This document shows positions 4,401 through 56,779 of a stretch of 64,000 nucleotides of DNA, piece after piece. Source of the stretch: Nostoc sp. FACHB-280. Its GTDB lineage: Bacteria > Cyanobacteriota > Cyanobacteriia > Cyanobacteriales > Nostocaceae. Position numbers and translations under genes: made by a program. The first letter of the stretch is position 1, and each line of letters starts with the position of its first letter. The stretch covers positions 1 through 64,000 of the forward strand of contig NZ_JACJSD010000014.1 in NCBI RefSeq assembly GCF_014697615.1, read 5' to 3'. A model generated the notes under the pieces. The model made no database searches. It saw only the letters and a program-made list of their open reading frames with translations, and had not been told where the DNA came from.

Positions 4401-5465
4401 TTACAGTAGGTTTGTAAAGCGCGGGTCATCTTGCAGGATTTTGAGAACCTGTTTAATTTCTTGGGTGCGTTCTTTATTAACGATGAGGGTAACATTGCGA
4501 TCGCGCACAATGACCACATCCTCTAAACCAATAGTAACAATTACATCCTCTGGATTAGTAGCATAAACAATCGCTCCTTGCGTATCTAAACCTAAATGGG
4601 TAGCTAATTCTACATTGGGAGTCTCTTCCTTTTTTAATAAACGTTCGATCGCATTCCAATCTCCTAAATCATCCCAACCAAAATCTACCGGGAGGACGTA
4701 TGCTAAATTGGTTTTTTCCATGAGTGCATAGTCTATACTCTTTTTAGGTAATTCAGGGTAAATATCAGGGCCGTATTGTTCTAGAGGTTTTATGATTTCT
4801 GGAGCATGGGTGTAAAGTTCCTCAAGAACAACCCCAGCCCGAAAGACAAACATTCCACTATTCCAGCTAAAACGTCCCGTAGATAAAAAAGTTTCTGCTA
4901 ACTCACGGTTGGGCTTTTCAGTAAAGCGGTTGACATGATAAGCTGGCAACTCATTAAAGCTACCAATCTTTTCACCTTGTTCAATGTAGCCGTAACCAGT
5001 TGATGGAAAAGCAGGCTTAATTCCTAAAGTAACAATCGCTCTGGTGCTTGTTGCTAGTTGAGTAGCAGCCTTTAATGTGTCAGTAAACGCCTTTTGGTCA
5101 GCTATCCAATGGTCAGCCGGAAAAAAGCCGATAATTGCGTCTTCTCCATAACGTTTTTTTATTTCTAAACTTGTCCAAGCAACGGCAGCGGCAGTATCCC
5201 TTCCTTCTACCTCAATGAGTAAATTGGACGATGGCAGTTCGGGTAACTGTTGGCGTACACCTCCAGCTATCTGGCTGGAAGTAATCACCCACAAGGAATT
5301 CCACCCGTCTGCCAATGGGAGCAACCGATCCGCAGTTGCTTGCAGTAAACTTCTAGAACTGCCATCTAAGCTTAAAAATTGTTTAGGACGGTCTTTGCGA
5401 CTCAAAGGCCAGAAACGCTCACCTTTGCCACCAGCGAGGATAACGGGGAACAAGGAACTATTCAT
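4401..5465 (-). CDS. Mannose-1-phosphate guanylyltransferase (GDP-mannose synthesis)
   Basis: The 354-residue enzyme opens with the nucleotidyltransferase signature LAGGKGERFWPLSRKDRPKQ and has the family FFPADH and FTEKP motifs, with WNSGMFVF in the active site. It makes GDP-mannose from mannose 1-phosphate and GTP in the cytosol, feeding cell-surface polysaccharide and glycan synthesis. It has only the transferase domain and lacks the C-terminal isomerase domain of bifunctional ManC/AlgA enzymes. The ATG at 5465 is chosen; an in-frame GTG at 5477 adds four residues. The LCP glycan ligase gene is divergent, across about 115 bases. Confidence 0.88.
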   Translation of the reverse strand: MNSSLFPVILAGGKGERFWPLSRKDRPKQFLSLDGSSRSLLQATADRLLPLADGWNSLWVITSSQIAGGVRQQLPELPSSNLLIEVEGRDTAAAVAWTSLEIKKRYGEDAIIGFFPADHWIADQKAFTDTLKAATQLATSTRAIVTLGIKPAFPSTGYGYIEQGEKIGSFNELPAYHVNRFTEKPNRELAETFLSTGRFSWNSGMFVFRAGVVLEELYTHAPEIIKPLEQYGPDIYPELPKKSIDYALMEKTNLAYVLPVDFGWDDLGDWNAIERLLKKEETPNVELATHLGLDTQGAIVYATNPEDVIVTIGLEDVVIVRDRNVTLIVNKERTQEIKQVLKILQDDPRFTNLL

Positions 5466-5582
5466 GTTGTCATACACACCTACGCAAGAACACTACAAGT
5501 TTACTGTGAGCATTTACTCTGGCAAGATTTGTAGCTTGCATTAACATAACTTTTATGGAAGTGGTTGAGTGGGGAGAAAATT

Positions 5583-7094
5583 GTGATTAGAGAAGTTCAA
5601 TTATCTGAAAATCAAGTAAAGTCTCAGCAAATACCGAATTTAGACTTGGAAAGCAAACCAGGTCAAATTCAACGCGTTGAAACTCAAGGAACGCTGCAAA
5701 CCGTCACCGAGACCAGCACAGATTCGGCATCTCAAGAAGCATCAGCCAGTTCCACCCGCACTGTTGTCGAGTCAGTCAGTGCTATTCCCAACGAACTGTA
5801 CGACAGATTGGGCTTAAGTATGCCCAGGTGGCTACTGTGGATACTGACAGTAGTTATGGGGGTAATTCTTTCTGGTCTTTTAGTTTCCACCTTGGCGCTG
5901 TGGACTCCCTTGTGGAGCAATTTAGATAAAACCGATGAGGAACTCGGTTTCGCAGGTAAAGAAGAGCAGAAAGTCCCTTTACCTGGGGAATTATGGAGCA
6001 AAATTTCCCAATACCAGCTATCCCGCCCCATGAATATTTTGATTATGGGGATTGAGCCAGTTAACGGTGCTGTTGATGGTTCACCAGAAAGTTTTGCTGG
6101 AAAAAGCGATACCATGCTTTTGGTCAGGCTCAACCCCAGTGATAAATCTATTCGGGTGCTTTCCATTCCCAGAGATACGATGATTGCGATCCCCGAAAAA
6201 GGGTTAACCAAGCTATCAGATGCTAATCCCCAAGGCGGGCCGGTATTGGCTGCTAGAGTAGTCAGCCGTACCTTAAACAATGCGCCCATCGACCGTTACA
6301 TTCGCATTTCTACCAGTGGCTTAAGGCAATTAGTGGATCAGTTGGGTGGGGTGGAAGTATTTGTACCTAAAGCAATAGAATACCACGATAGTAGCAGCCA
6401 ATTGAACATTAATCTAGTCAGTGGCTGGCAAACCCTTGACGGCGAACAGGCAGAACAATTTGCCCGTTTCCGGGAAGATGGACTAGGGGATTTACCTAGA
6501 GTACAGCGTCAACAAGCACTACTAGGCGCATTGATTCAACGCCTCAATAGTCCTACTGTCGTACCGAAATTGCCCCAATTAACCCGCATTATGCGGAAGT
6601 ATTTTGATACCAACTTAAAGATAGAAGAAATGATGGCTTTGGTGAATTTCTCCGTGAATGTAGAGAGGAATAATTTCCAAATGACCACTGTACCTGGTAC
6701 TTTCAGCCGTTTCAGTCAAGACCCCAATAGCTATTGGCTGAATATGACTGGACAATCAAATCTCTTGAATAATTATGTTGGGGTGGATGTACCTGGACTC
6801 AAGCCAGATACACGTCCAGTTTCTAACCTCAAAATTGCTATTCAAAATGCTTCTAATCAACCACAAGTTACGGAAAAAGTTATTGCTTATCTCAAAGAGA
6901 AAGGCTTTAAAAATATTTACACAACCTCAGATTGGCCTGATAGCCAGCGTCAAACTCAGATTATTGTTCACAGAGGTAGCCGACAACCAGGAATTGAGTT
7001 ACAAAAAATCTTAGGTTTGGGTCAAATTGAAGTGTCAACAGCTGGAGACTTGGAATCAGATATCACAATTCGGATTGGGAAAGATTGGAAATAG
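5583..7094 (+). CDS. LytR-CpsA-Psr (LCP) family glycopolymer ligase
   Basis: The protein has a cytoplasmic N-terminus of about 80 residues rich in Ser, Thr and Gln, one membrane segment (about 83-107, WLLWILTVVMGVILSG), then an LCP domain outside the membrane with GKSDTMLLVRLNP, VLSIPRDT and the closing LPRVQRQQALL. A C-terminal LytR_C domain starts near NLKIAIQNAS. LCP enzymes transfer polyprenyl-linked glycopolymers onto the wall. GTG at 5583 is preferred because GGGGAG (5571-5576) lies seven bases before it; a TTG at 5565 would add six residues. The divergent neighbour makes GDP-mannose, which suggits a shared surface-glycan theme (inference). Confidence 0.87.
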   Translation: MIREVQLSENQVKSQQIPNLDLESKPGQIQRVETQGTLQTVTETSTDSASQEASASSTRTVVESVSAIPNELYDRLGLSMPRWLLWILTVVMGVILSGLLVSTLALWTPLWSNLDKTDEELGFAGKEEQKVPLPGELWSKISQYQLSRPMNILIMGIEPVNGAVDGSPESFAGKSDTMLLVRLNPSDKSIRVLSIPRDTMIAIPEKGLTKLSDANPQGGPVLAARVVSRTLNNAPIDRYIRISTSGLRQLVDQLGGVEVFVPKAIEYHDSSSQLNINLVSGWQTLDGEQAEQFARFREDGLGDLPRVQRQQALLGALIQRLNSPTVVPKLPQLTRIMRKYFDTNLKIEEMMALVNFSVNVERNNFQMTTVPGTFSRFSQDPNSYWLNMTGQSNLLNNYVGVDVPGLKPDTRPVSNLKIAIQNASNQPQVTEKVIAYLKEKGFKNIYTTSDWPDSQRQTQIIVHRGSRQPGIELQKILGLGQIEVSTAGDLESDITIRIGKDWK

Positions 7095-7248: not shown

Positions 7249-7755
7249 ATGAAAAAGATTTGGCAGAAATTGTTAAGTTTAATTATCATTTTCCTTTTAG
7301 CTGGCTTGTGGCTAATACTGAGTCCAAGACCAGCTTTTGCTCAAATTAATACCATCAACTACAGCAATACCAATTTAGAAAACCGTGACTTCTCCAATGC
7401 TGATTTAGCGGGTGTAACTTTTGTGGCTGCGGAAATGCGGGGTACTAATTTCCAAGGCGCAAATTTAACTAATGCTATTTTCACCAAAGGAGTTTTATTA
7501 AAAGCTAATTTAGCAGGTGCAAACTTAACGGGTGCTTTAGTAGATCGAGTGACTTTAGATGGTGCTAACTTAAAAAATGCTAATTTTACGGAAGCTACTT
7601 TAACGCGTAGTCGTTTTTACGATGCTGATATTACTGGCGCGGATTTTACAGATGCGTTAATTGACCGCTATCAAGTGTCATTGTTATGTGAAAGGGCGAC
7701 TGGGGTAAATCCAACTACGGGGGTGGCGACACGCGATAGTTTGGGTTGTCGTTGA
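7249..7755 (+). CDS. Exported pentapeptide-repeat protein
   Basis: The 168-residue protein starts MKKIWQKLLSLIII, has a clear signal peptide, and is probably cut after ...PRPAFA (about residue 31). The mature part is a run of A(N/D)LXX pentapeptide repeats (for example NADLAGVTF, GANLTNAIF, GANLTGALV, NANFTEATL), which fold as a right-handed four-sided helix. Two cysteines (LCERA and the C-terminal GCR) could form a disulfide, as in lumenal pentapeptide proteins. Export points to the thylakoid lumen or periplasm. The ATG at 7249 follows GAGAGG at 7232-7237; an upstream GTG at 7237 is less likely. The biochemical role is not known for this family. Confidence 0.85.
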   Translation: MKKIWQKLLSLIIIFLLAGLWLILSPRPAFAQINTINYSNTNLENRDFSNADLAGVTFVAAEMRGTNFQGANLTNAIFTKGVLLKANLAGANLTGALVDRVTLDGANLKNANFTEATLTRSRFYDADITGADFTDALIDRYQVSLLCERATGVNPTTGVATRDSLGCR

Positions 7756-7889
7756 AGAGTTGTCAGTATTCAGAATACAGAAGTCAGAAGCGGTCACAGT
7801 AATTTGACTCAGAGTCTAAAACTATGAGAATCTCTGTCGAGGAAAATTTAGTACAACAAGGCAAAAGTCAAAAGGCAAAAATCAAAAGA

Positions 7890-7922
7890 AAGAATAACGA
7901 TACTACAAGCCTTTTAGCAATT
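7890..7922. repeat. Dispersed repeat shared with 58921-58957
   Basis: AAAGAATAACGATACTACAA followed by GCCTTTTAGCAATTT recurs, with three differences, upstream of the small RNAs at 58921. The surrounding 7756-8012 also holds a facing pair of repeats (ATTCAGAATACAGAAGTCAG near 7782 and ATTCTGACTTCTGACTCC near 7984) and AAAAGGCAAAA strings near 7860. No gene is seen in this interval. Confidence 0.55.
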
Positions 7923-8012
7923 TCTTATGGTCTGTTTATTTACGCAGTACTGTACTAGATTAACTAAATATTCTGGATTCTGACTTCTGACTCCTGAATT
8001 CTTACAAAGAAT

Positions 8013-11000
8013 TTAATCATAAGAACAGGGAAGTTCAATGAGAAATTCGGTTCCTTTTCCGGGAGTGGATGTACATTTAATTTGACCTTGATGCTTTTCG
8101 ACAATGATTTGGTGGCTAATAGATAAACCTAATCCTGTACCTTTACCGGGTTCCTTGGTGGTAAAGAAAGGGTCGAAAATATGGGAAGTGACATCTTCAG
8201 GGATTCCCAGACCATTATCAGCGATTTTGATGATTACTTGGCGATCGCGCCTTTGAGTACTGATCCAAATTTTTAAAGGTACTCTAGGACAGGTAGTTGA
8301 AGCTTGTAAATGCTGATTCCAGATGACTTTAAACTTATCTTCTAAAGCATCAATACTGTTACTCAGAAGATTCATAAATACTTGATTCAGTTGGGCAGGA
8401 TAACATTCAACCAAAGGTAATGTGCCGTATTCCTTCACCACCTCAATATTGGGGCGGGCATAATTTTCTTTAAGGCGATGTCCTAAAATCAGCAAAGTAC
8501 TATCCAATCCCTGATGAATATCTACTGCTCTTACATCAGCTTCATCAGTACGAGAAAAATTTCTGAGTGATAGTACAATTTCTTTAATTCTTTCCGCACC
8601 GACTTTCATAGAATCTATTGTTTTAGGCAAATCTTCAAGGATAAATTCCAAATTATGATTATCTATTTCTTCTTTAATATTTGGCAATAAAGAATTATAT
8701 TTACGGTAAATCTGCAAAACGCTCAATAACTCTTGGGTATATTCATTTAAATGAATCAGATTACCAAAAATAAAACTAACAGGGTTATTAATTTCGTGAG
8801 CGACCCCAGCGAGTAATTGTCCTAACCCTGCCATTTTCTCGCCCTGAATTAACCGTGCTTGAGTCTGCTTTAATTCACATAAAGTTTGAGTTAATTCTAG
8901 AGTTTGACGTTTTGTTTGTTCCAGTAATTCTGCTTGTTGAATAGCAATCCCTAACTGCACGCCAACTTGTGCTAATAAATTGATTTCTTCATCTTTCCAA
9001 TAACGTGGTTGTGAATTTTGATAAGCGACTAATAGTCCCCATAATCTTTCGCCTTGACGTATAGGTACAAAAGTTTCATTACGAGGTAATTTATCATCTT
9101 CATCTGTATCTTCAAAGGTGGCCAAAACGAGCGGATTAACTTGTATTAGATGTTTCCAACCATCTTTAAAAGAATCAGCAACAAATTTACCACTCCAATC
9201 GGCATTAAAGCGATATATGGCTACTCTCTCGACTTTTAATAACTCACGTACAGCTTGAGTAGTAGTTTTAAAAATAGTTGTTATATCCAACGACTGGCGG
9301 ATTTTATCAATAGTTTCAGCTAATAATTTTTGCCGTTCCATTGATTTTTCGCGTTCATTAGCCTCTGCTAACTGAACGGCTTGAGTTTGAACTTGGGTTA
9401 AATAAGAATCTTGTTTTAAAGCAACTCCTAATTGTTCAGCTATTTGGATCACAAAATCAATTTCTGACTGTTGCCAATTACGCGGAGTTTTACATTGATG
9501 AATACACAATAAGCCCCATAGAAGACCTTCTTGTAAAAGTGGAGCTACTAAATTAGCTCGTACTTGAAATCTTTCGAGAATTTCTATATAACACGAGGGA
9601 AAATTACCTTGATAAATATCAGTAATTACATTGACTCTACCTTGGGCATAAAGAGGGGCAAAATTTTCACTAAAACAATGATCATAAACTTTGTCTGCTA
9701 CTGCTGAAGGATAACCATGACTTACAGCATCATATATAAATTCTCCTTCCCAGTCTTTTTGTTGATCAAATCGAAAAACACCTACACGGTCAGCTTGCAG
9801 TAATTGTCTTACCTCTATGACAGAGGTTTGAAAAATTGTATCTAAATCTAAAGACTCCCGAATTCGGGTAATAATGCTAGTTAAAGTTTTCTGCTGATTG
9901 GCTTGATAGCGAGCTTCATGTAAGAGTTTGTTGTGTTGTAAAGCTACTCCCAAGTTTTCAGCAATTTGAGTCGCAAATTCTATTTCTGAAGGTTGCCAAT
10001 TTCTGGGTTTATCACATTGGTGAACACATAATAAACCCCATAAATTGCCCTGTTTTAGTAGTGGTACTACTAAATTAGCTCGCACTTGGAAATTTCCTAA
10101 AATTTTAGTATGACAGGCACTTAATCCCGCATCATAAATATCAGCTACAGCCTGGACTCTACCTTGTTGATAATGCACCGCAAACTGTTCACCAAAACAA
10201 TAGTCGTAAACTTTAGCAGCTACTACGGAGTCCCACTCTGGTGCAACATCTTCAGAGATAAATTCGCCTTCCCAGTCTTTTTGCGGATCAAAGTGAAAAA
10301 TTGCAACTCTATCTGCTTGCAGCATTTGCCGCACTTCCGTAACGGTAGTTTGAAAAATTGTTTCTAAATCTAGGGATTTACGGATGCGTGTGATTACACT
10401 CGTTAAAGTTTTTTGCTGTTCTGCTTGGGCATTAGCTTGAGCTAGTAGTTCATAGTGTCGCAAGGCTACACCTATTTGCGTACCAATTTTGCTCAACGAT
10501 TCAATTTCATAAGACTGCCATTGTCTAGGAACAGAATTTTGATAGGCAGCAATAATGCCCCAAAGTTTATCACCTTGGAGAATGGGAGCAGTGGCGAAAG
10601 CTTTAGCTTCAAATTGTTCTAATAAAATCACATGGCAATTGGTTAATCCCTCTTGATAAATATCATTGGCGCTAAAAGTTTGGTTTTGAGCATAACGTCC
10701 ACCTTGGGTTTGTTGTAAATAAGTATCGTTAATTACAGGTTGAACATTAACTAAAGGTGTCCAACCTTCAACAAATGATTCAGCAACAAACTCACCACTC
10801 CAATCAGGATTAAAGCGGAATATAGCAACACGATCAGCTTCTAAAAGTTGCCGGATTTCTTGAGTAGTGGTTTTAAAGATGCTATCAATGTCCAAAGGTG
10901 GACGAATTTGATCAACGATTTGGGCAATTACTTGGTCACGTTGGGCTGTTTGTGCCAGTTTTGTTGCTTGTAGTTGAACTTTTTTCAGGTGACTGGCTTG

Positions 11001-49412: not shown

Positions 49413-50297
49413 CTATAACTTCTGCAATAACTCTTGAGTTAACTGCAAAAATGCTTTAGAACCAGCAGACTGAGGTGCATTCAACACAGCAGGCATAAAA
49501 CTATCAACAGCTTTAGCCACATTAATATCAACAGGAATTTGTGCCTTACAAATTTGTTCTACACCAAAATCTTCCACAACCCGGTGCATAACTTGTTTGT
49601 AATATCTGCCAGTGAGCAAATTAGTATTGCACATACTAAATACAATTCCCAGCATTTTGATATTGATTTGTGCTTCTTGTTCGTGACTATCTTTTAACTG
49701 ACCAATGCGTCTTTCTAACAGTTGAATCCCGACTACAGATAGTGGTTCTGGCTTGGCGGGGAGGATATAAAAATCACTAGCAGCTAAAGCACTGCGAGTC
49801 AACAAATTGTAACCAGGAGCGCAATCTAACAGAATAAAATCATATTGCTCTCGCACTGGTTTTAAAATGTTATTTATCAATACTCGCTCAAAGCGATTCC
49901 ACACAGTTTCAAAGTTTTGTTCACCAAAAGCAACCGTTTGTTTGTGCAGCATTTCTGACACCACAAACTCATCATATAAATCGATATCACCTGGCAATAA
50001 ATGTAGTTCTGAAAGTCCACAAACTTGCGTTTGAATAATATCGTTAATTGTTACCTTACTATTGGGATCTGGATTGATAACATCGTCGATTAAATATCTA
50101 AATGTCAATCTTTGTTTGCGACGCTTGGCAAAGTCTAAAGGCGACATCAGACTCAGCGTGGCACTGATTTGGGTATCTAAATCTAATACCAGTACCCGCT
50201 TACCATGATTTTTCGCCAAACAAGTGGCTAAGTTGACGGTGAGAGTCGTTTTCCCTACACCGCCTTTCATATTTGCAGTAGCAATTACATATCCCAT
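49413..50297 (-). CDS. ParA-family ATPase
   Basis: The 294-residue protein has a deviant Walker A, MKGGVGKTTLTVNLATCLA (residues 10-28), a switch motif VLDLDTQISATLSLM, and YDFILLDCAPGYNLLTRSAL. It belongs to the ParA/Soj/MinD-like group that positions DNA or protein cargo by ATP-dependent dimerisation. No parB or parS site is beside it, so it is an orphan. It lies 134 bases downstream of the nuclease-translocase gene on the same strand and could be a fourth member of that cassette (inference). AGAGGAA is positioned before the ATG. Confidence 0.88.
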   Translation of the reverse strand: MGYVIATANMKGGVGKTTLTVNLATCLAKNHGKRVLVLDLDTQISATLSLMSPLDFAKRRKQRLTFRYLIDDVINPDPNSKVTINDIIQTQVCGLSELHLLPGDIDLYDEFVVSEMLHKQTVAFGEQNFETVWNRFERVLINNILKPVREQYDFILLDCAPGYNLLTRSALAASDFYILPAKPEPLSVVGIQLLERRIGQLKDSHEQEAQINIKMLGIVFSMCNTNLLTGRYYKQVMHRVVEDFGVEQICKAQIPVDINVAKAVDSFMPAVLNAPQSAGSKAFLQLTQELLQKL

Positions 50298-50431
50298 TGG
50301 TTAATTCCTCTGATGACGCATTCCCATCTAGGTAGCGTACACCCATCCTGAACGCTTAAAACTTTCGTTAAATTTAATATTTGTGGGAAATCAAAAATTA
50401 AAACTTTCAAATTATAGCAGTACCTATTTAC

Positions 50432-53008
50432 CTAAACGGAGGGTAACTGAATATTTGTGGCCAATAAGCTTTGTAAACGATGCTGTTGAGAGCCCACTTG
50501 GTAAAGTAAATCACCTTTACCCAATAAGTAAGCAGAAGAGGTTTCTGTTCCTCCCAGGACAATTTTTGAGTCTGCTTCACTGGCGGTTCGTAAAGCAACA
50601 CGTCCTGGTAAATTTGCGCGGATAATTGGTGTAACCACCTTAGCTTCTGGACGTTGGGTAGCAATGATTAAATGAATACCTGCGGCGCGTGCCATTGCTC
50701 CTAAACGTTTGATACTTTGTTCTAGTACGGTGCGAATTTCTTTTTCTGCCATAAAGTCTGCATATTCATCAAATATACAGACAATGCGAGGTAAAGACTG
50801 GGAAGAACACTGGTTATAAGTGCTTAAATCAGCACATCCCGCTTTTTCAAACTGCTGATAGCGAGACTCCATCTCTGTTACTAATTCTTCCATAAGTCCG
50901 ACAGCGCGATCGCTATCTTTGACGACTGGTGAATATAACCAAGCCATCCGTTCAAACTCTGGAAACGTGACGCGCTTGGGGTCAACCAAAGCAATTTTGA
51001 GATGTTGCGGTGCATAACGATATAGTAAGCTGAGGAGGAGCGATCGCAAAAATTCACTCTTACCGCTACCAGTTGTCCCACCAACTAAAAAGTGACAAGA
51101 ATTCGGATCTGATAAGTCTGCTTCTAATAATTCACCCTCTATGTTTACCCCAATAGCAATTTTTACAGGTGCAGTTGCAGGTAAAAATTTTGCTTGAATA
51201 TACTTTTCTAAATGGGCAATTTGCCTATCTGGACGAGGTAAATCAATACTGACATATCCCGCTTGTGGTGCAATTAAAGGTGCATTTGCTAACCCTAATT
51301 GCACTTGCAAATCATCCGATAACTTCAGTAAAGCATTCACTTTCACGCCAAGATGAGGCTTCAATTTAACCCTGATAAAAGCAGGCCCAACAGCAGCACC
51401 TTGATAATCAACACCCACACCAAACGATTGCAAAGTATTAATTAAAGTTTCCCCTATCTCATCAGCATTTGCTGTTTCTTGACTATCTTCTATCTCTTCC
51501 TCCCCCCTTTTGAAGGGGGGCTGGGGGGGATCAAATTCTACAACACCAAAAAAAGTCTGACACTTTTGCTGTTGAGGACAAATTTTGCACAAATGAGGCT
51601 GAGTTGTTGGCGGTGGTGGGTTGGGATGAGGAGATTCCCAAGTCAACCATTGCTGCATTTGTAGTAATTTATGAGGAATTAACTGATGTACTGTATTTTC
51701 TAACTGTTCCCAAGAATAACGATACTCTTTAAACTCAGGTAATACACAATAAACCGCAGAATCAACCGGAACTTTTTTCTGTTGGTGTAACATATAACTG
51801 TAAAGTGCAACCTGAGCTAATTGCGCTGAAGGATCTACAGGTTGATAGGTTTTAAACTCCACCACACACAGGCGATTAATTTCAAAATTAAACACCAGAC
51901 AGTCAAATTCACCTCTAACTAATTGTTGTGTTGTATCTGGAAGAGGAAAATTATATTCAATATTGCGTTCTTGAGATAAAAAAGTGTTACTAATTAATGT
52001 CTCTGCATTGCAATGGTGACGATTAGTTAATAATAGTTCTGCAAAGCGTTTGATGAGTCCTTGTAATCCATTCCAAACCTGTAAAAGCGTCTGTCCTTGT
52101 TCACCATCTTTTTGGATAGCTTTTTGTAAATAAGGAAAAAACTCAAGTTGATAAAATAACTGTTGCAATGCAGTCGTAATTTCTTCTAAATTTAACTGTG
52201 ATGCAGGTGGTTTAAATAAATTACTAAACTGTGGCTCAATAATAGCTAATTTAACAAACTTATCTGCTAACTGATGAAAGGGATTACCAATACCAATAGC
52301 TGTATCTTGTGGTAAAAATATTGCTTTATCACCAAATTGATGATTTAGATAAAACAGCCTTGGACACTCAAAAGCCAATCTAACTTTAGTAACACTTAAA
52401 GCAGAATTTTGCGATTTATTTGTTAAATGCTGTGAGCCATTGTTAACCATAACAATATTAGGATTATATATTTTAATTAGCTGATGATGCACAGCAGCTA
52501 GATAAACTGTATCCATTGCAGCATATTCTAACTGCTTTTGGCTGAGAGGGCGTTTTCCCCAATCACTAGATTGTTCTGCTATGTTGATATTAGAAAAATG
52601 ACAGAGTTCAACTGCTAAAGTTTTCAGTTTTAAATTCGACGTTTGCAATTTTTGGCGTGTAATTTTTCTCGCAAGTTGTAAAGTACAAGTTACATTCTTT
52701 GCTAGATGACTTCCTAAATATTTTAAGTCAAATACAGCATTATGAAATACTTTTTCAATTTGAGGGTTAATCATGATTTGATTAATGAAATTAGCCACTA
52801 ACCCATGATTATTTAGTACATCAAAAATATAAGCAGATGAGCCTGTGCTATCTGTAGGGTCAGCTAATACCTGAATCAACGATAATTTAGGTTGTGAAGT
52901 ATACCAATTAGCAATTTCTGTATCTAACCACAATATTTTAGTCGTTGTTAATTGCGACATTACTTCTTGAATTGTGGCTGGTTCTGTCAGGTAGTGCATT
53001 GATAACAT
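50432..53008 (-). CDS. Fused DEDD exonuclease, Cas4-like FeS nuclease and FtsK/HerA-type translocase
   Basis: From ATG 53008 (MLSMHYLTEP) the product is 858 residues. Residues 20-180 are an RNase D-like 3'-5' exonuclease (D29-T-E31 in LWLDTE, D94 in HNAVFDLKYL, Y162 and D166 in LEYAAMDTVYL). Residues 205-490 are a PD-(D/E)XK domain of the Cas4/AddB sort, with D369 (GEFDCLV), E384-F-K386 and four cysteines (C215 in FECPRLFY; C474, C477, C483) placed for a [4Fe-4S] cluster. Residues 530-858 are an FtsK-like ATPase (Walker A GGTTGSGKS 643-651; Walker B IVCIFDEYAD 742-751). The start is 14 bases after the upstream stop. A repeat-encoded DPPQPPFKRGE insert sits at about 493-503. No characterised protein that I know has this order. 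Confidence 0.85.
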   Translation of the reverse strand: MLSMHYLTEPATIQEVMSQLTTTKILWLDTEIANWYTSQPKLSLIQVLADPTDSTGSSAYIFDVLNNHGLVANFINQIMINPQIEKVFHNAVFDLKYLGSHLAKNVTCTLQLARKITRQKLQTSNLKLKTLAVELCHFSNINIAEQSSDWGKRPLSQKQLEYAAMDTVYLAAVHHQLIKIYNPNIVMVNNGSQHLTNKSQNSALSVTKVRLAFECPRLFYLNHQFGDKAIFLPQDTAIGIGNPFHQLADKFVKLAIIEPQFSNLFKPPASQLNLEEITTALQQLFYQLEFFPYLQKAIQKDGEQGQTLLQVWNGLQGLIKRFAELLLTNRHHCNAETLISNTFLSQERNIEYNFPLPDTTQQLVRGEFDCLVFNFEINRLCVVEFKTYQPVDPSAQLAQVALYSYMLHQQKKVPVDSAVYCVLPEFKEYRYSWEQLENTVHQLIPHKLLQMQQWLTWESPHPNPPPPTTQPHLCKICPQQQKCQTFFGVVEFDPPQPPFKRGEEEIEDSQETANADEIGETLINTLQSFGVGVDYQGAAVGPAFIRVKLKPHLGVKVNALLKLSDDLQVQLGLANAPLIAPQAGYVSIDLPRPDRQIAHLEKYIQAKFLPATAPVKIAIGVNIEGELLEADLSDPNSCHFLVGGTTGSGKSEFLRSLLLSLLYRYAPQHLKIALVDPKRVTFPEFERMAWLYSPVVKDSDRAVGLMEELVTEMESRYQQFEKAGCADLSTYNQCSSQSLPRIVCIFDEYADFMAEKEIRTVLEQSIKRLGAMARAAGIHLIIATQRPEAKVVTPIIRANLPGRVALRTASEADSKIVLGGTETSSAYLLGKGDLLYQVGSQQHRLQSLLATNIQLPSV
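51490..51537. repeat. C/G-rich palindromic repeat inside the nuclease-translocase gene
   Basis: TCCCCCCTTTTGAAGGGGGG followed by a CTGGGGGGGATC run is a common cyanobacterial repeat with a CCCCCC/GGGGGG stem. It is read in frame as DPPQPPFKRGE on the minus strand, between the FeS nuclease and the translocase, which is a tolerant linker position. Confidence 0.7.
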
Positions 53009-53022
53009 TGAATAAACATAAG

Positions 53023-55134
53023 TTAGGCGACTAAACAAATTAATTGGTCTTGTAACTTAGCCTTTGGGTTAATAATTTTTACTTTCTTCTCTTGACATAA
53101 AAGCTCAATTAATAACTGAACATCATTTGCTTTCACATTAGGGAACTGATCAACAGAATTCTTTATCAAAGTAGGTACACCCATAAAGCTTTGAGTTTTA
53201 ACTAGATTTACTAAAAAATCTTTAACAGGGCGTAAATCTTCTTTCTTGTAATTTCCGTTATCTTTAACAGGTTCTTGCTTGGCGACAAGTCCTAAATCCT
53301 GTAATAAGGTACACTTGTGTAATATCTTCGATGACTGCATTAGTGATTGTAAATATTGCAGATTAATCACTTTACCATGAATTACTAATTCTTGAGAAAG
53401 TGCGGCATTTATTAGGTTATGATATGTTGCCAAATAATGAACAGAAGTTAATGAAGGTTTGAGATGAATATGATTAGTTGCTGTAAAAACTTGTTGATAT
53501 ATTTGATATCCCACAAGTCGTCCTTGTCCTACACTACTTAAACGAATCAAATATAAAGTTTGACAAATATCTTGCTGAATAACTTTTTGACAAGCACTCA
53601 TAACATGAAAAAAGCTATTCATATTGGCATCTTCTGTCCATACTATTCCTATCTTGTCTCGTTTACCAATTTTTTGATAACTTAAGGAATAGCTTGCAAA
53701 TCTACCATTTAAAAGTTTTGGCTTAATTTGTTGTACTCCGCATAACTCCATAGCTTCCTGGAGCATCCGAATTAAATCAGAAGATGCTGTTAAGTTAATT
53801 TTTTTGATTTTTAGCTGAGTTTTTTTGTACTCTTGTTCCCATAACAACCGAAATTCAGCCTGAATTATTTCTTCTACGTTATTTATTGTGTCAGTTGTAT
53901 TTTTAGTGGTACTTATATCAGTTTTTTTCTGTGTATTTTCCTTGCCATTCTCGGTTATTTCTTGATTATTTTTTTTAAAAAATTCCTCTTTAATATTTTC
54001 TTTATATGTTTGATAAGCTACCATACCTAGATTAATCACATTTCTAGGATAAGTCTTTTTACCGGGAAAATTACTTTCTAACAACTGTCTTTCTAATGGA
54101 AAAATTGGTGATTTTGGAAGGCTACTTGCCTGAATATGTAAATTCTTAAGAAGATAAGCCCAAATAGACTCTGCTTGCTCTAAATTAATAGACTTGAGCT
54201 TGAGATATTTATGAATTCCAGCTTTATCAGCTTGTTGAATACGGTTTTGATGAATATTTAATGTATTAGTAATAATACTAATTATTACTAAAAAGTTCTT
54301 GAGTGATTCACCATGAATAGTTGTGTTTACATCAAAAAATGGTTGTATATCTAGAAATCCATCCTGCATTTTCGGCATTGTATCTAGATTATCAAAACAT
54401 AATACAATAGGTTTAGTTTCTGTAGAGATTCTTCCAAAATTAGCTAGAATATTCTTAGCTTCATCCTCTGACTCAATACATTGTTTAACTTTAAGAGCTT
54501 GCATCGATTCTTCACTTAAAGAGTCACCTCGCAACCACTCACAAGCTAATGTATAAAGTTCTGGATTAGTTAAATCATGTAACAGTCCAAAAAAAATATC
54601 GGGATTGTATATTCGTGCTGTTTTATAGGTATCTTTCAGATGCTTAATAAATTTCTGTCTGTCACTTGATAAAAATTCCCATATATTGTCGTTAAAAAAT
54701 CGCTGTTTGAGACTCCGCTTAGTGAAAGCAGACAAGCTTTTTAGCCATAACATTAATTGAGATTCTGTCTGCTCATCTGGAATTTGAATTAAGCTATCAA
54801 CTGTATAGCGTAGAATATGTCTCCAAATATTATTGCTATCAGCCCAATCACATAGTATGTAAACAAAAAAAGCCTTGGCATTAAGAGTTCGTTTGAGACG
54901 ACCTAATAAATGACTTTTACCAGAACCAGGATCACCTACAATCATAACAGAACGACTGCGATGATCTGTAACGACTAAATCGAGAAATTCTTGAATATCA
55001 TTAATTACTTCTTGATGAATAGAATCAACATTTAGAGATGCGTTTTGTTGTTCTTCCCAAAAATTCATCGGTTTTGGGTTGATTCGGTTAAAAGGATTAA
55101 CCTCTCGGAGAATAATTTCGTTAATATTTGCCAT
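53023..55134 (-). CDS. P-loop ATPase, middle gene of the nuclease-translocase cassette
   Basis: The 703-residue protein has Walker A GDPGSGKSH (67-75) and Walker B IVLCFDNLD (243-251), a large AAA/STAND-like ATPase fold, then a low-complexity linker (about 395-425, TENGKENTQKKTDISTTK) and a C-terminal half ending in a predicted winged helix (LIKNSVDQFPNVKANDVQLL). It resembles ORC/Cdc6- or BrxC-like NTPases only in general form, and I cannot name the family. It is 48 bases downstream of the winged-helix gene and 14 bases upstream of the nuclease-translocase gene, so the three are clearly one transcript. Confidence 0.75.
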   Translation of the reverse strand: MANINEIILREVNPFNRINPKPMNFWEEQQNASLNVDSIHQEVINDIQEFLDLVVTDHRSRSVMIVGDPGSGKSHLLGRLKRTLNAKAFFVYILCDWADSNNIWRHILRYTVDSLIQIPDEQTESQLMLWLKSLSAFTKRSLKQRFFNDNIWEFLSSDRQKFIKHLKDTYKTARIYNPDIFFGLLHDLTNPELYTLACEWLRGDSLSEESMQALKVKQCIESEDEAKNILANFGRISTETKPIVLCFDNLDTMPKMQDGFLDIQPFFDVNTTIHGESLKNFLVIISIITNTLNIHQNRIQQADKAGIHKYLKLKSINLEQAESIWAYLLKNLHIQASSLPKSPIFPLERQLLESNFPGKKTYPRNVINLGMVAYQTYKENIKEEFFKKNNQEITENGKENTQKKTDISTTKNTTDTINNVEEIIQAEFRLLWEQEYKKTQLKIKKINLTASSDLIRMLQEAMELCGVQQIKPKLLNGRFASYSLSYQKIGKRDKIGIVWTEDANMNSFFHVMSACQKVIQQDICQTLYLIRLSSVGQGRLVGYQIYQQVFTATNHIHLKPSLTSVHYLATYHNLINAALSQELVIHGKVINLQYLQSLMQSSKILHKCTLLQDLGLVAKQEPVKDNGNYKKEDLRPVKDFLVNLVKTQSFMGVPTLIKNSVDQFPNVKANDVQLLIELLCQEKKVKIINPKAKLQDQLICLVA

Positions 55135-55182
55135 GCTTAAGCTTGATGAAATGATGGATTTGCTTTTTACGTAAAATCTGTT

Positions 55183-56022
55183 TTAATTCACTGTAATAAA
55201 AAACAGCGAACCACCAATATTTTGATGAATCCCTGCATCTATTTGCTCTGCGGTATAGATACTAGCTTCTTGTAGAGTACTAAAATCAATTTTGTCTTGA
55301 GCCTGCAAACGATACAAAGCCTGATCTAATTCATCACGCGATAATGGCGGTTGTAATTTTTGCCGCAGATGGAAAATAGGTAGATAATTCTCTGTTCCTA
55401 ATTCCTTATCTAATTTTTCAACAATTTGTAAAATTTCTTCGTCATTAATATTAATGCTGTTATCAGATTGTGGCTCAAATATAGGTGGTTGTTCCTGTTT
55501 AACTCGCAAAGTCTTGCGTAAAAACCGTAGATAATTACCCAGCAATTCTAAGCTGATGGCTGGTTGAACGCCTTTGTTGGGGTTGTAGTCATCCCGGAGA
55601 AACTCAATTCCTCTTTCAGTCAGCCAAACTTCAGCTTTGGTCTTTTTGAGTTGGGTTTCAGCTTCAATTAACCCGCGTTCCTTGAGGGTTTTTAATACTG
55701 CGTCTCGTTCAGCAGCTTTTAAACCGGCGATTTTGCTGGGTGCGATTTTACCGGAAGCTTTACTGATTTTCTCCAGCACCTTAAGTTCTGTGTCTGTGAT
55801 GGGTACTTCTCCTGCTGGGAGTTTCAGCAAGGCTTGACCAGTAGATAGAATCTTAACTGTGGCAATCTCACGGGTATAGTCTACCAGTTCACGATCGCCT
55901 AACTCTCGACAAATTTTATCTTTACCTTTAAAACTACTAAAAGCAGACAATCCTGCTCGATAATTGGCAAATCCCAATAACTTTAGAAGAAACTTTAATT
56001 CATTCGTATCCATGCTAGTCAT
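55183..56022 (-). CDS. Winged-helix-type protein, first gene of the nuclease-translocase cassette
   Basis: The 279-residue protein appears to contain two or three winged-helix modules: about 15-90 (YRAGLSAFSSFKGKDKICRE onward), 95-140 (KISPSKIAG-type, with VLKTLKERGLIEAETQLKKTKAEVWLTERGIEFL), and 200-270 (LRQKLQPPLSRDELDQALYRLQAQDKIDF). No catalytic motif is seen. It may be the DNA-binding or loading part of the system, or its regulator. Start ATG 56022 is preceded by AGGCTTG; ATG 56013 is also possible. Confidence 0.65.
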   Translation of the reverse strand: MTSMDTNELKFLLKLLGFANYRAGLSAFSSFKGKDKICRELGDRELVDYTREIATVKILSTGQALLKLPAGEVPITDTELKVLEKISKASGKIAPSKIAGLKAAERDAVLKTLKERGLIEAETQLKKTKAEVWLTERGIEFLRDDYNPNKGVQPAISLELLGNYLRFLRKTLRVKQEQPPIFEPQSDNSININDEEILQIVEKLDKELGTENYLPIFHLRQKLQPPLSRDELDQALYRLQAQDKIDFSTLQEASIYTAEQIDAGIHQNIGGSLFFITVN

Positions 56023-56779
56023 CAAGCCTATATTTAATTCCGCTATAGTCTGGTGCTAAGGGCAAAAATTTACACACCTCCTTATCGTAGCTGTAATTAG
56101 TGCTGATGACTACAACAGAACTAGCGATCGCTGATTCACATTTAAGCAATTATTATTAATTTTCATTGAAAAATATAAATACTAAAAAACTATCAAGAAA
56201 AAAAATACTTTCTATTATAAAGAGTCTATATCTAGAAAATCAGTCAATTAGCGATCGCACATAATATCAAAACTATCTCTAGCTTGTTTTTCGTTCAAAC
56301 TACCGATAAACTAACTAGATGTTTAAGAATTTGGTAATGCGATCGCCTGCAAATTCTACATAGACTATTGTGGAAATATCTCATGTTTCACACATTCTTT
56401 GGTACTGAGAAACTAAAAGCATATTGAGATATAGCAAGCCTAAGTAATTTACAAACATCTATCTCCCTTGTCTACCGTGTCTCTCTGAAGTCTCTTATTC
56501 ATATAGCAATCCTATCTGAGTTGTAAAAAATATTCTTTATAACGAACCGCAAAGGACGCAAAGGACACAAAGAAGAAGAATAAAGAGAAGAAAGAGAATT
56601 TCACAAATGATTTAGGATTGCTATATCTCAAATAAGATGGCTATCGTTAGGTATTTTTATCTACCAATTTATAGATAAAAATCTATCTATCTTTTGACTT
56701 CACAAGTTACCTCATCTGGGAGAAACGCCGATAAATCAATGTTGTTAATCTGATTACAGATGAGATTTCCGAGGTCGTT
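56023..56779. other. Intergenic interval upstream of the cassette, with a MITE-like element
   Basis: The 757 bases lie between divergent genes. They hold the cassette promoter region at the left, several HIP1 or near-HIP1 sites (about 56125, 56250, 56340) and the 126-bp element at 56501-56626. No gene is seen. Confidence 0.6.
56501..56626. mobile_element. MITE-like element with 14-bp terminal inverted repeats
   Basis: ATATAGCAATCCTA (56501-56514) is exactly inverted as TAGGATTGCTATAT (56613-56626). The 98 bases between include AACGAACCGCAAAGGACGCA and AAGGACACAAAGAAG, a direct-repeat motif seen widely in Nostoc genomes, and no reading frame. Ends of this type suggest a non-autonomous mobile repeat. 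No target duplication is obvious. Confidence 0.6.

Follow-up and report, generated by a model that had tools for sequence, protein, structure and literature searches.

Exchange of divergent ATPase alleles in a cyanobacterial winged helix–ATPase–nuclease/FtsK operon predicted to act on invading DNA

We found that the gene of an Orc/Cdc6-like ATPase, the middle member of a three-gene operon conserved among cyanobacteria, is exchanged between deeply divergent alleles, an observation that is new here. The operon lies on a 64,000-nucleotide stretch of Nostoc sp. FACHB-280 (contig NZ_JACJSD010000014.1, positions 1 to 64,000; hereafter, the window), where a winged-helix protein (WH), the ATPase, and a fusion of two nuclease domains with an FtsK motor are encoded one after the other. 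Judging by its predicted domains, it is of a kind already known from computational prediction, as is the function assigned to that kind. It is probably a restriction-like anti-invader system, the cyanobacterial form of the Orc/Cdc6-type HerA/FtsK capture systems. The features of the region are as follows:

55183..56025, minus strand: WH, putative triple winged-helix DNA-binding protein, 280 aa (open reading frame, AlphaFold2 model, homology to WH proteins of sister operons)
53023..55134, minus strand: Orc/Cdc6-like AAA+ ATPase, 703 aa (AAA_16, Foldseek)
53300..55500 (approximate), minus strand: block exchanged for a divergent allele, L006 versus the window (DNA identity)
50432..53038, minus strand: DEDDy exonuclease–Cas4-like nuclease–FtsK fusion, 868 aa counted from a TTG (Pfam)
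49413..50297, minus strand: ParA-family ATPase, neighbouring core gene judged to be outside the system (orthologue survey)

All four open reading frames were found on the minus strand, with gaps of 48 nt between WH and ATPase and of 134 nt between fusion and ParA, as a preliminary description of this DNA had claimed. The 14 nt that it gave between ATPase and fusion hold when counted from the ATG at residue 11 of the fusion; in the alignment, the homologues mostly begin at residue 14 (ATG at ~52999), which gives a gap of ~23 nt. The WH protein probably starts at a conserved ATG, its residue 5. Of the neighbours named in that description, the Uma2 gene was confirmed by Pfam (E 7e-41), and HigBA could not be upheld, the 134-aa reading frame in question having no Pfam match at E ≤ 1.

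Then, we evaluated the conservation of the operon. GTDB species genomes were scanned with the fusion alone, which gave 145 relatives, and the best 80 of these 145 were fetched, all of them cyanobacterial. WH, ATPase and fusion occur in one order and on one strand in 71 of the best 80 of 145 loci (including L008, in which the ATPase is broken), which bears out the claim that they form one conserved operon. The remaining nine comprise seven loci cut by contig ends, L021 without a detectable WH, and L075 without WH and ATPase. In a further sample, the ATPase adjoins a full or nearly full fusion in 15 of 17 whole genomes, and the WH–ATPase pair lies far from the fusion in 2 of the 17; the genes are therefore not usually apart. 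In genomes G135 and G195, WH and ATPase stay paired while the fusion is elsewhere, an arrangement that indicates a unit made of WH–ATPase plus a separable fusion.

The distribution of the operon is patchy, and decayed copies occur. By hand count, strong ATPase matches (E ≤ 1e-60) are present in 34 of 195 class genomes, at least four of them with stops or fragments, and matches of at least 300 bits in 66 of 119 family genomes, so that 53 have none by that cut; in the window’s own genus the ATPase was found in two of five genomes. Three of the 66 family genomes (G241, G254 and G283) contain only a divergent ATPase, at 38–39% identity, with no adjoining WH or fusion. The operon of L141 is fragmented and contains a transposase, and L133 and L134 retain a 3′ remnant of the fusion (86% identical). 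The sole plasmid record found was a copy on a conjugative plasmid of Pseudanabaena PCC 7367, comprising a fusion without DEDD domain, the ATPase and a WH-like gene. Viral contigs were pattern-scanned with the ATPase alignments A2 and A4, and no relative was confirmed, two short patterns per alignment being a search by which relatives could be missed; a phage origin was set aside with that limit.

Additional ATPase copies were also observed. In L087 and L089, WH is followed by two tandem type-A ATPase genes with no adjoining fusion (the pair is 45% identical in L087), and genome G021 has a separate complete operon (L088) elsewhere. A second ATPase of 668–696 aa, ~38–39% identical, stands beside the operon or replaces it near ParA in L140 (10397–12445), L143, L144 and L145.

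The fusion consists, as described earlier, of a DEDD exonuclease, a Cas4-like nuclease and an FtsK motor. The first domain (residues 15–189) is a 3′-5′ exonuclease of the RNase D-type DEDDy group (Pfam DNA_pol_A_exo1, E 7e-28), the second (214–494) is a Cas4/RecB-like PD-(D/E)XK domain with four cysteines (PDDEXK_1, E 2.7e-13), and the third (516–840) comprises the FtsK alpha and motor parts (FtsK_alpha, E 1.6e-11; FtsK_SpoIIIE, E 5e-41). Residues D379, K396, C225, C484, C487 and C493 are identical in all 81 aligned fusions and position 394 is E or D in each of the 81 rows, in which the FtsK Walker A and B residues are invariant as well; the DEDDy residues are invariant in all rows having the column. 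The PD-(D/E)XK domain thus has the features of an active REase-fold nuclease, its activity being a prediction from sequence. The nearest solved structures are FtsK motors (2iuu, E 2e-64), and the exonuclease part leads to diDNase/NrnC-type enzymes. The candidate that the fusion is the cellular FtsK was rejected, since Pfam gave no match to FtsK gamma or 4TM at E ≤ 1 and the genome has a separate 736-aa FtsK-like frame (G000:C51). Most or all of the DEDD domain is missing from the fusions of L086, L106, L085, L169 and L173 (~650–690 aa), so the exonuclease may be dispensable. L170 has a complete operon with an additional stand-alone Cas4-like nuclease (4925–5788) upstream; three Uma2-like genes lie in tandem nearby.

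The ATPase is organized into an AAA+ region (~40–380; Pfam AAA_16, E 3e-9), a variable linker, an alpha/beta middle domain (~450–580) and a C-terminal winged helix (~635–703). Searched by sequence, it found no solved structure below E 0.06. Its AlphaFold2 model (pLDDT 82.9) has a secondary structure that fits these three domains, and Foldseek placed Cdc6/Orc1 (2qby_B, E 2.8e-5) best, with ORC subunits also matched; extra domains in the model keep the TM-scores low (~0.2 by query, at most 0.48 by target). On the strength of this model, we assign the protein to the Orc/Cdc6-like AAA+ ATPases. The helix and strand order of residues 451–579, followed by the C-terminal wing, is in the model consistent with an inserted inactive REase, for which the middle domain is a candidate. 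Walker A reads GDPGSGKS. In 73 of the 74 ungapped rows, the Walker B aspartate is followed by N or Q and not by E, a substitution suggesting that the ATPase may work like a switch.

For the winged-helix protein, the AlphaFold2 model (mean pLDDT 84) contains three winged-helix-like modules, in line with the preliminary description, and the sole Pfam match, HTH_45, is below threshold (0.0034). Searching solved structures with the sequence gave weak wHTH matches; with the model, Foldseek gave no match at E ≤ 0.001, and the DndG/SspG HMMs did not match the protein. In a profile comparison, the third winged helix (window positions 55183–55443) weakly matched Z-alpha proteins, which bind Z-DNA (1sfu, E 0.005); the resemblance is probably generic to winged helices.

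The exchange of the ATPase can be read from pairs of closely related operons. Between the window and L006 (Nostoc sp. FACHB-110), the fusion is 96.5% and ParA 97% identical, yet the ATPase only 63.6%. The end of WH and most of the ATPase form a block (~53,300–55,500) of 69–77% DNA identity or unalignable, against 91–99% in the operon DNA flanking it and 85% at the lower block edge. In L137, the fusion is 89% and the ATPase 91% identical to those of the window. Over 69 complete operons, fusion identity correlates with that of WH at 0.87, of the C-half of the ATPase at 0.77, and of its N-half at 0.43. Among the 56 pairs with fusions at least 85% identical, N-half identity is below 70% in 27, between 70 and 80% in one, and at least 80% in 28, and half of such close-fusion groups (7/14, at 75% linkage) contain two or three N-half alleles. 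For example, the fusion of L017 (Dolichospermum) is 96% identical to that of L084, yet its ATPase N-half is nearest to L027 (Brasilonema). The divergent N-halves are often 45–60% identical, and the alleles persist across families.

Furthermore, forcing the fusion-based groups together in the N-half tree was rejected by the AU test in three of four cases (p-AU 6e-8 or less), p values that are descriptive as the groups were named after the identities had been seen; the members of the fourth (L033 and L038) were already together. Seven N-half clusters require 15 changes on the fusion tree versus 6 on their own tree. In swapped pairs the entire ATPase is divergent, and WH residues 241–280 are at 49–61% versus 92–93% in unswapped pairs; the other regions differ little, with identities of 69 versus 82 for the WH linker (181–200) and 77 versus 89 for fusion residues 281–320. 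ParA identity is 94.1% in the 22 swapped and 94.2% in the 13 unswapped pairs having it. In unswapped pairs, divergence of the ATPase exceeds that of the fusion only modestly, which makes the diversity look like the outcome of old alleles being exchanged and not simply of fast change. That the WH tail travels with the ATPase may reflect nothing beyond their closeness, given that crossovers could occur in a well-conserved stretch immediately preceding the tail.

We tentatively propose, as a quite possible explanation, that the ATPase and the last wing of its WH partner are an exchangeable specificity cassette of the machine, comparable to HsdS in type I restriction, whose old alleles are swapped by homologous recombination into conserved operons, their diversity being maintained through frequency-dependent selection by phages, plasmids or their inhibitors. 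Here we infer target specificity from ATPase diversity. If the proposal is true, exchanging ATPase alleles between strains should direct the defence to other targets, and the natural allele pairs are a ready experiment.

The gene following the operon, parA, had been counted as part of it. An orthologue was found in all 14 Nostocaceae genomes tested, 10 of which are without the operon’s ATPase, and this rules ParA out as a fourth member; the gene belongs to the core whether the operon is there or not, and its product is 83–98% identical across the 13 other genomes. It lies downstream of the operon in 42 of the best 80 of 145 loci, and the distance to the fusion is at most 600 nt in 25 of the 80. 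We also studied 16 further loci near ParA, which were selected, several of them for an absent or damaged operon. In 8 of these 16, a gene of 454–472 aa and then one of ~240–260 aa stand divergently beside ParA. The first encodes a protein with a weak ParA-like match in seven of the eight cases, and in L130 with an HSDR_N restriction-type domain at the cut-off; the second has a ParB_N domain in L130 and L131. This two-gene cassette, which replaces the operon in L130 (1511–3649) and at the same place in L131–L134 and L143–L145, and which adjoins the fusion remnant in L133 and L134, is possibly a ParAB-nuclease defence pair, going by its domains. The ParA site, occupied by the operon, the cassette or remnants, marks a place with turnover and not a member of the system.

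Through weaker ATPase matches we reached sister operons (L090–L104, L122, L123 and L126), consisting of a WH gene (212–267 aa), an ATPase gene (615–666 aa, ~800 in two) and a third gene (430–494 aa). In the six third genes scanned, out of 14 aligned, Pfam found DUF1802 in all six and Mrr_cat in five (E 0.017 to 1.4e-4, one above the cut-off), and a D...E-C-K motif is invariant in 14/14. Such a DUF1802-Mrr gene is present in 17 of the 19 fetched sister loci with a strong ATPase, and not in L097 and L124; the latter (7549–10948) holds a distant ATPase relative in another context, adjoining a vWA (TerF-like) gene. By hhalign, the ATPases of the two operon types are homologous (probability 99.9, E 1.6e-33, 538 columns), as are their WH proteins (probability 98.4, E 5.4e-15), and the fusion and the DUF1802-Mrr protein are unrelated (probability 0.16). 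Strong ATPase matches of the sister type occur in ~40 of 195 class genomes (hand count).

Across the ATPase relatives, these parts reappear in differing fusions. A third form (L115–L121, L125 and L165) has ATPases of ~990–1100 aa, with a HerA-type motor fused to the related ATPase in the two scanned of eight such proteins, an adjoining DUF559 nuclease gene in the three loci scanned, and a WH-like gene in several; on a Tsukamurella plasmid, an annotated set of this form adjoins VapB and PIN genes. In a fourth form (L107–L114), the ATPase is alone (~790–850 aa); the single protein scanned, that of L107, begins with an RNase_T (DEDDh-type) exonuclease domain. A common WH–ATPase core with exchangeable nuclease partners suggests one recognition module for several restriction effectors.

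To assess the surroundings of the operons, a PADLOC scan took in 110 of the 176 proteins that neighbour 30 chosen type-A loci and 110 of the 119 that neighbour 17 type-B loci, with 104 proteins from 19 arbitrary regions as control; six control proteins from L145, which is a hotspot locus in its own right, were excluded. Among the matches listed, a type IIG enzyme, AbiEi/AbiEii and HEC-06 were matched once each by type-A neighbours, type-B neighbours gave Septu, PARIS AriA and MADS proteins, and the control matches, in six proteins, were all kinase-type. Among these listed matches, there was no clear excess of defence genes around the operon relative to the control.

The preliminary description had supposed one complex acting on DNA, and the reading with the best support is, with ParA left out, a machine that acts on invading DNA. 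In such a machine, the triple-wHTH protein and the Orc/Cdc6-like ATPase would bind DNA and recognise an invader-specific feature. The ATPase, as loader or switch, would recruit or open the FtsK-type ring on the bound DNA, as Orc/Cdc6 and FtsK biology suggests. The ring would pump DNA past the four-cysteine (Fe-S-type) PD-(D/E)XK nuclease, which is predicted to cut it, and the DEDDy domain may trim ends or short products. The ATPase allele, possibly with the last 40 WH residues, would set the recognition target or the evasion of invader inhibitors. Such a role in specificity would explain why that segment moves from species to species and the motor-nuclease remains tied to its lineage. Indeed, an ATPase that is swapped between species like an exchangeable part points to the component doing the recognition.

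One alternative is a housekeeping role, in a machine for DNA-end processing or for chromosome or plasmid segregation. Broken or dimeric DNA would then be resolved or degraded by an FtsK-like pump loaded by the ATPase, and the RecB/Cas4-like and DEDD nucleases would carry out the resection. The parts list is suitable, the FtsK alpha and motor parts resemble those of cellular FtsK (the 2iuu match above), the fusion is strongly conserved, and ParA stands downstream in the 42 loci. That Nostocaceae have kept the operon widely and for a long time could equally be explained by a semi-essential housekeeping role, and it was counted against defence, as were the lack of a clear PADLOC neighbour enrichment, the distant fusion in 2 of 17 genomes, the three family genomes with only a divergent ATPase, and the allele exchange in so far as it could come from selection other than invader recognition. 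However, the ATPase is absent by bit score from 53 of 119 family genomes, including three of the five of the same genus, operon copies decay, the genome has its separate FtsK-like gene (C51), ParA is independent of the operon, and swapping of alleles as divergent as 50% is not what one would expect of a core repair gene. We consider this role unlikely. The allele exchange, together with patchy distribution and decayed copies, favours a restriction-like defence in which the ATPase (perhaps with the WH tail) sets specificity, and defence fits better than repair or segregation because of the intact nucleases, the pump, the Orc/Cdc6-like ATPase and the restriction-type sister operons in addition to these three points. 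The conserved gene order and the HerA-fused ATPase relatives beside a DUF559 nuclease count in favour of defence as well.

Mrr-type nucleases suggest restriction of incoming DNA in general, and those of the sister operons speak in this way against a specialised barrier to plasmids, conjugation or transformation rather than to phages. Such a barrier agrees with the copy on the conjugative plasmid of Pseudanabaena PCC 7367, possibly an inter-plasmid weapon, and with the published model in which HerA/FtsK pumps intercept segregating, transferring or packaging DNA (PMC10853773); all in all, we find it quite improbable. That the operon is a selfish or addictive module of no benefit to the host would accord with decay, patchiness and nuclease content, and is highly improbable: there is no mobility gene among WH, ATPase and fusion, the pattern scans confirmed no relative on viral contigs, one plasmid record has the set, and ParA downstream in 42 of the best 80 of 145 loci indicates a lasting chromosomal position. 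The anti-invader reading is also favoured by the published prediction of such a function for the same architecture, as given in that paper’s account of capture systems (PMC10853773).

Comparison with known systems places the operon as follows. Membership of DndFGH/SspFGH (DptFGH), which share a HerA/FtsK motor and a multi-wHTH partner with it, was rejected: the PADLOC SspH model matches the fusion motor (residues 516–852, E 7e-68), whereas DndF/SspF and DndG/SspG have no match in the operon at E ≤ 1, and the DndF model TIGR03238 exceeded its cut-off in none of the 195 class genomes, with three sub-threshold matches. HerA-NurA likewise combines a pump with a nuclease; the pump studied here differs in having FtsK-alpha and an FtsK motor, and no NurA match was found in the operon, so membership was dismissed. 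In BREX (BrxC) and in the BREX-Related Capture systems of a 2026 BREX survey, which takes up the capture-system theme again, an Orc/Cdc6-type ATPase, HerA/FtsK and wHTH recur together, according to the parts of the survey on this theme (PMC12839542). BREX itself was excluded, as WH, ATPase and fusion have no Pfam match to PglZ, PglX or BrxA; PF10923 (BrxC/D) matches the ATPase below the cut-off (E 0.0075). No model of PADLOC-DB 2.0.0 matches the ATPase or WH better than E 2.9e-5, and the literature searched yielded no experimental work on this operon type.

The preliminary description recognised no named system in this combination, which does match the Orc/Cdc6 branch of the HerA/FtsK capture systems (Rakesh, Aravind and Krishnan 2024, PMC10853773); at the level of computational prediction, the set is largely a system already named. 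In the sections on capture systems, these are predicted from genome and domain context without experiment, and capture and restriction of invader DNA are proposed (PMC10853773). The same sections describe separate, related Orc/Cdc6 genes accompanied by a REase-ASCH protein and a triple-wHTH protein (PMC10853773), apparently the DUF1802-Mrr operons, in which DUF1802 may correspond to the ASCH domain. Those operons have a homologous ATPase and WH, and differ in the third gene, DUF1802-Mrr instead of DEDD-Cas4-FtsK. The main text of the paper is without cyanobacteria, and its capture-system sections without ATPase allele exchange (PMC10853773). Because filamentous cyanobacteria offer intact operons by the dozen, along with genomes naturally lacking them, decayed copies and ATPase alleles swapped in nature, existing strain pairs allow a direct test of which subunit decides what is ‘foreign’. 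As far as those sections define the Orc/Cdc6 branch, the operon fits most of its features, those of the branch being an Orc/Cdc6 AAA+ ATPase with an inserted inactive REase (here a candidate domain) and a C-terminal wHTH, a separate multi-wHTH protein, an active REase-fold nuclease, HerA/FtsK coupled to the ATPase and in one set with FtsK-alpha, and, in some sets, a 3′-5′ exonuclease fused to the FtsK component (PMC10853773).
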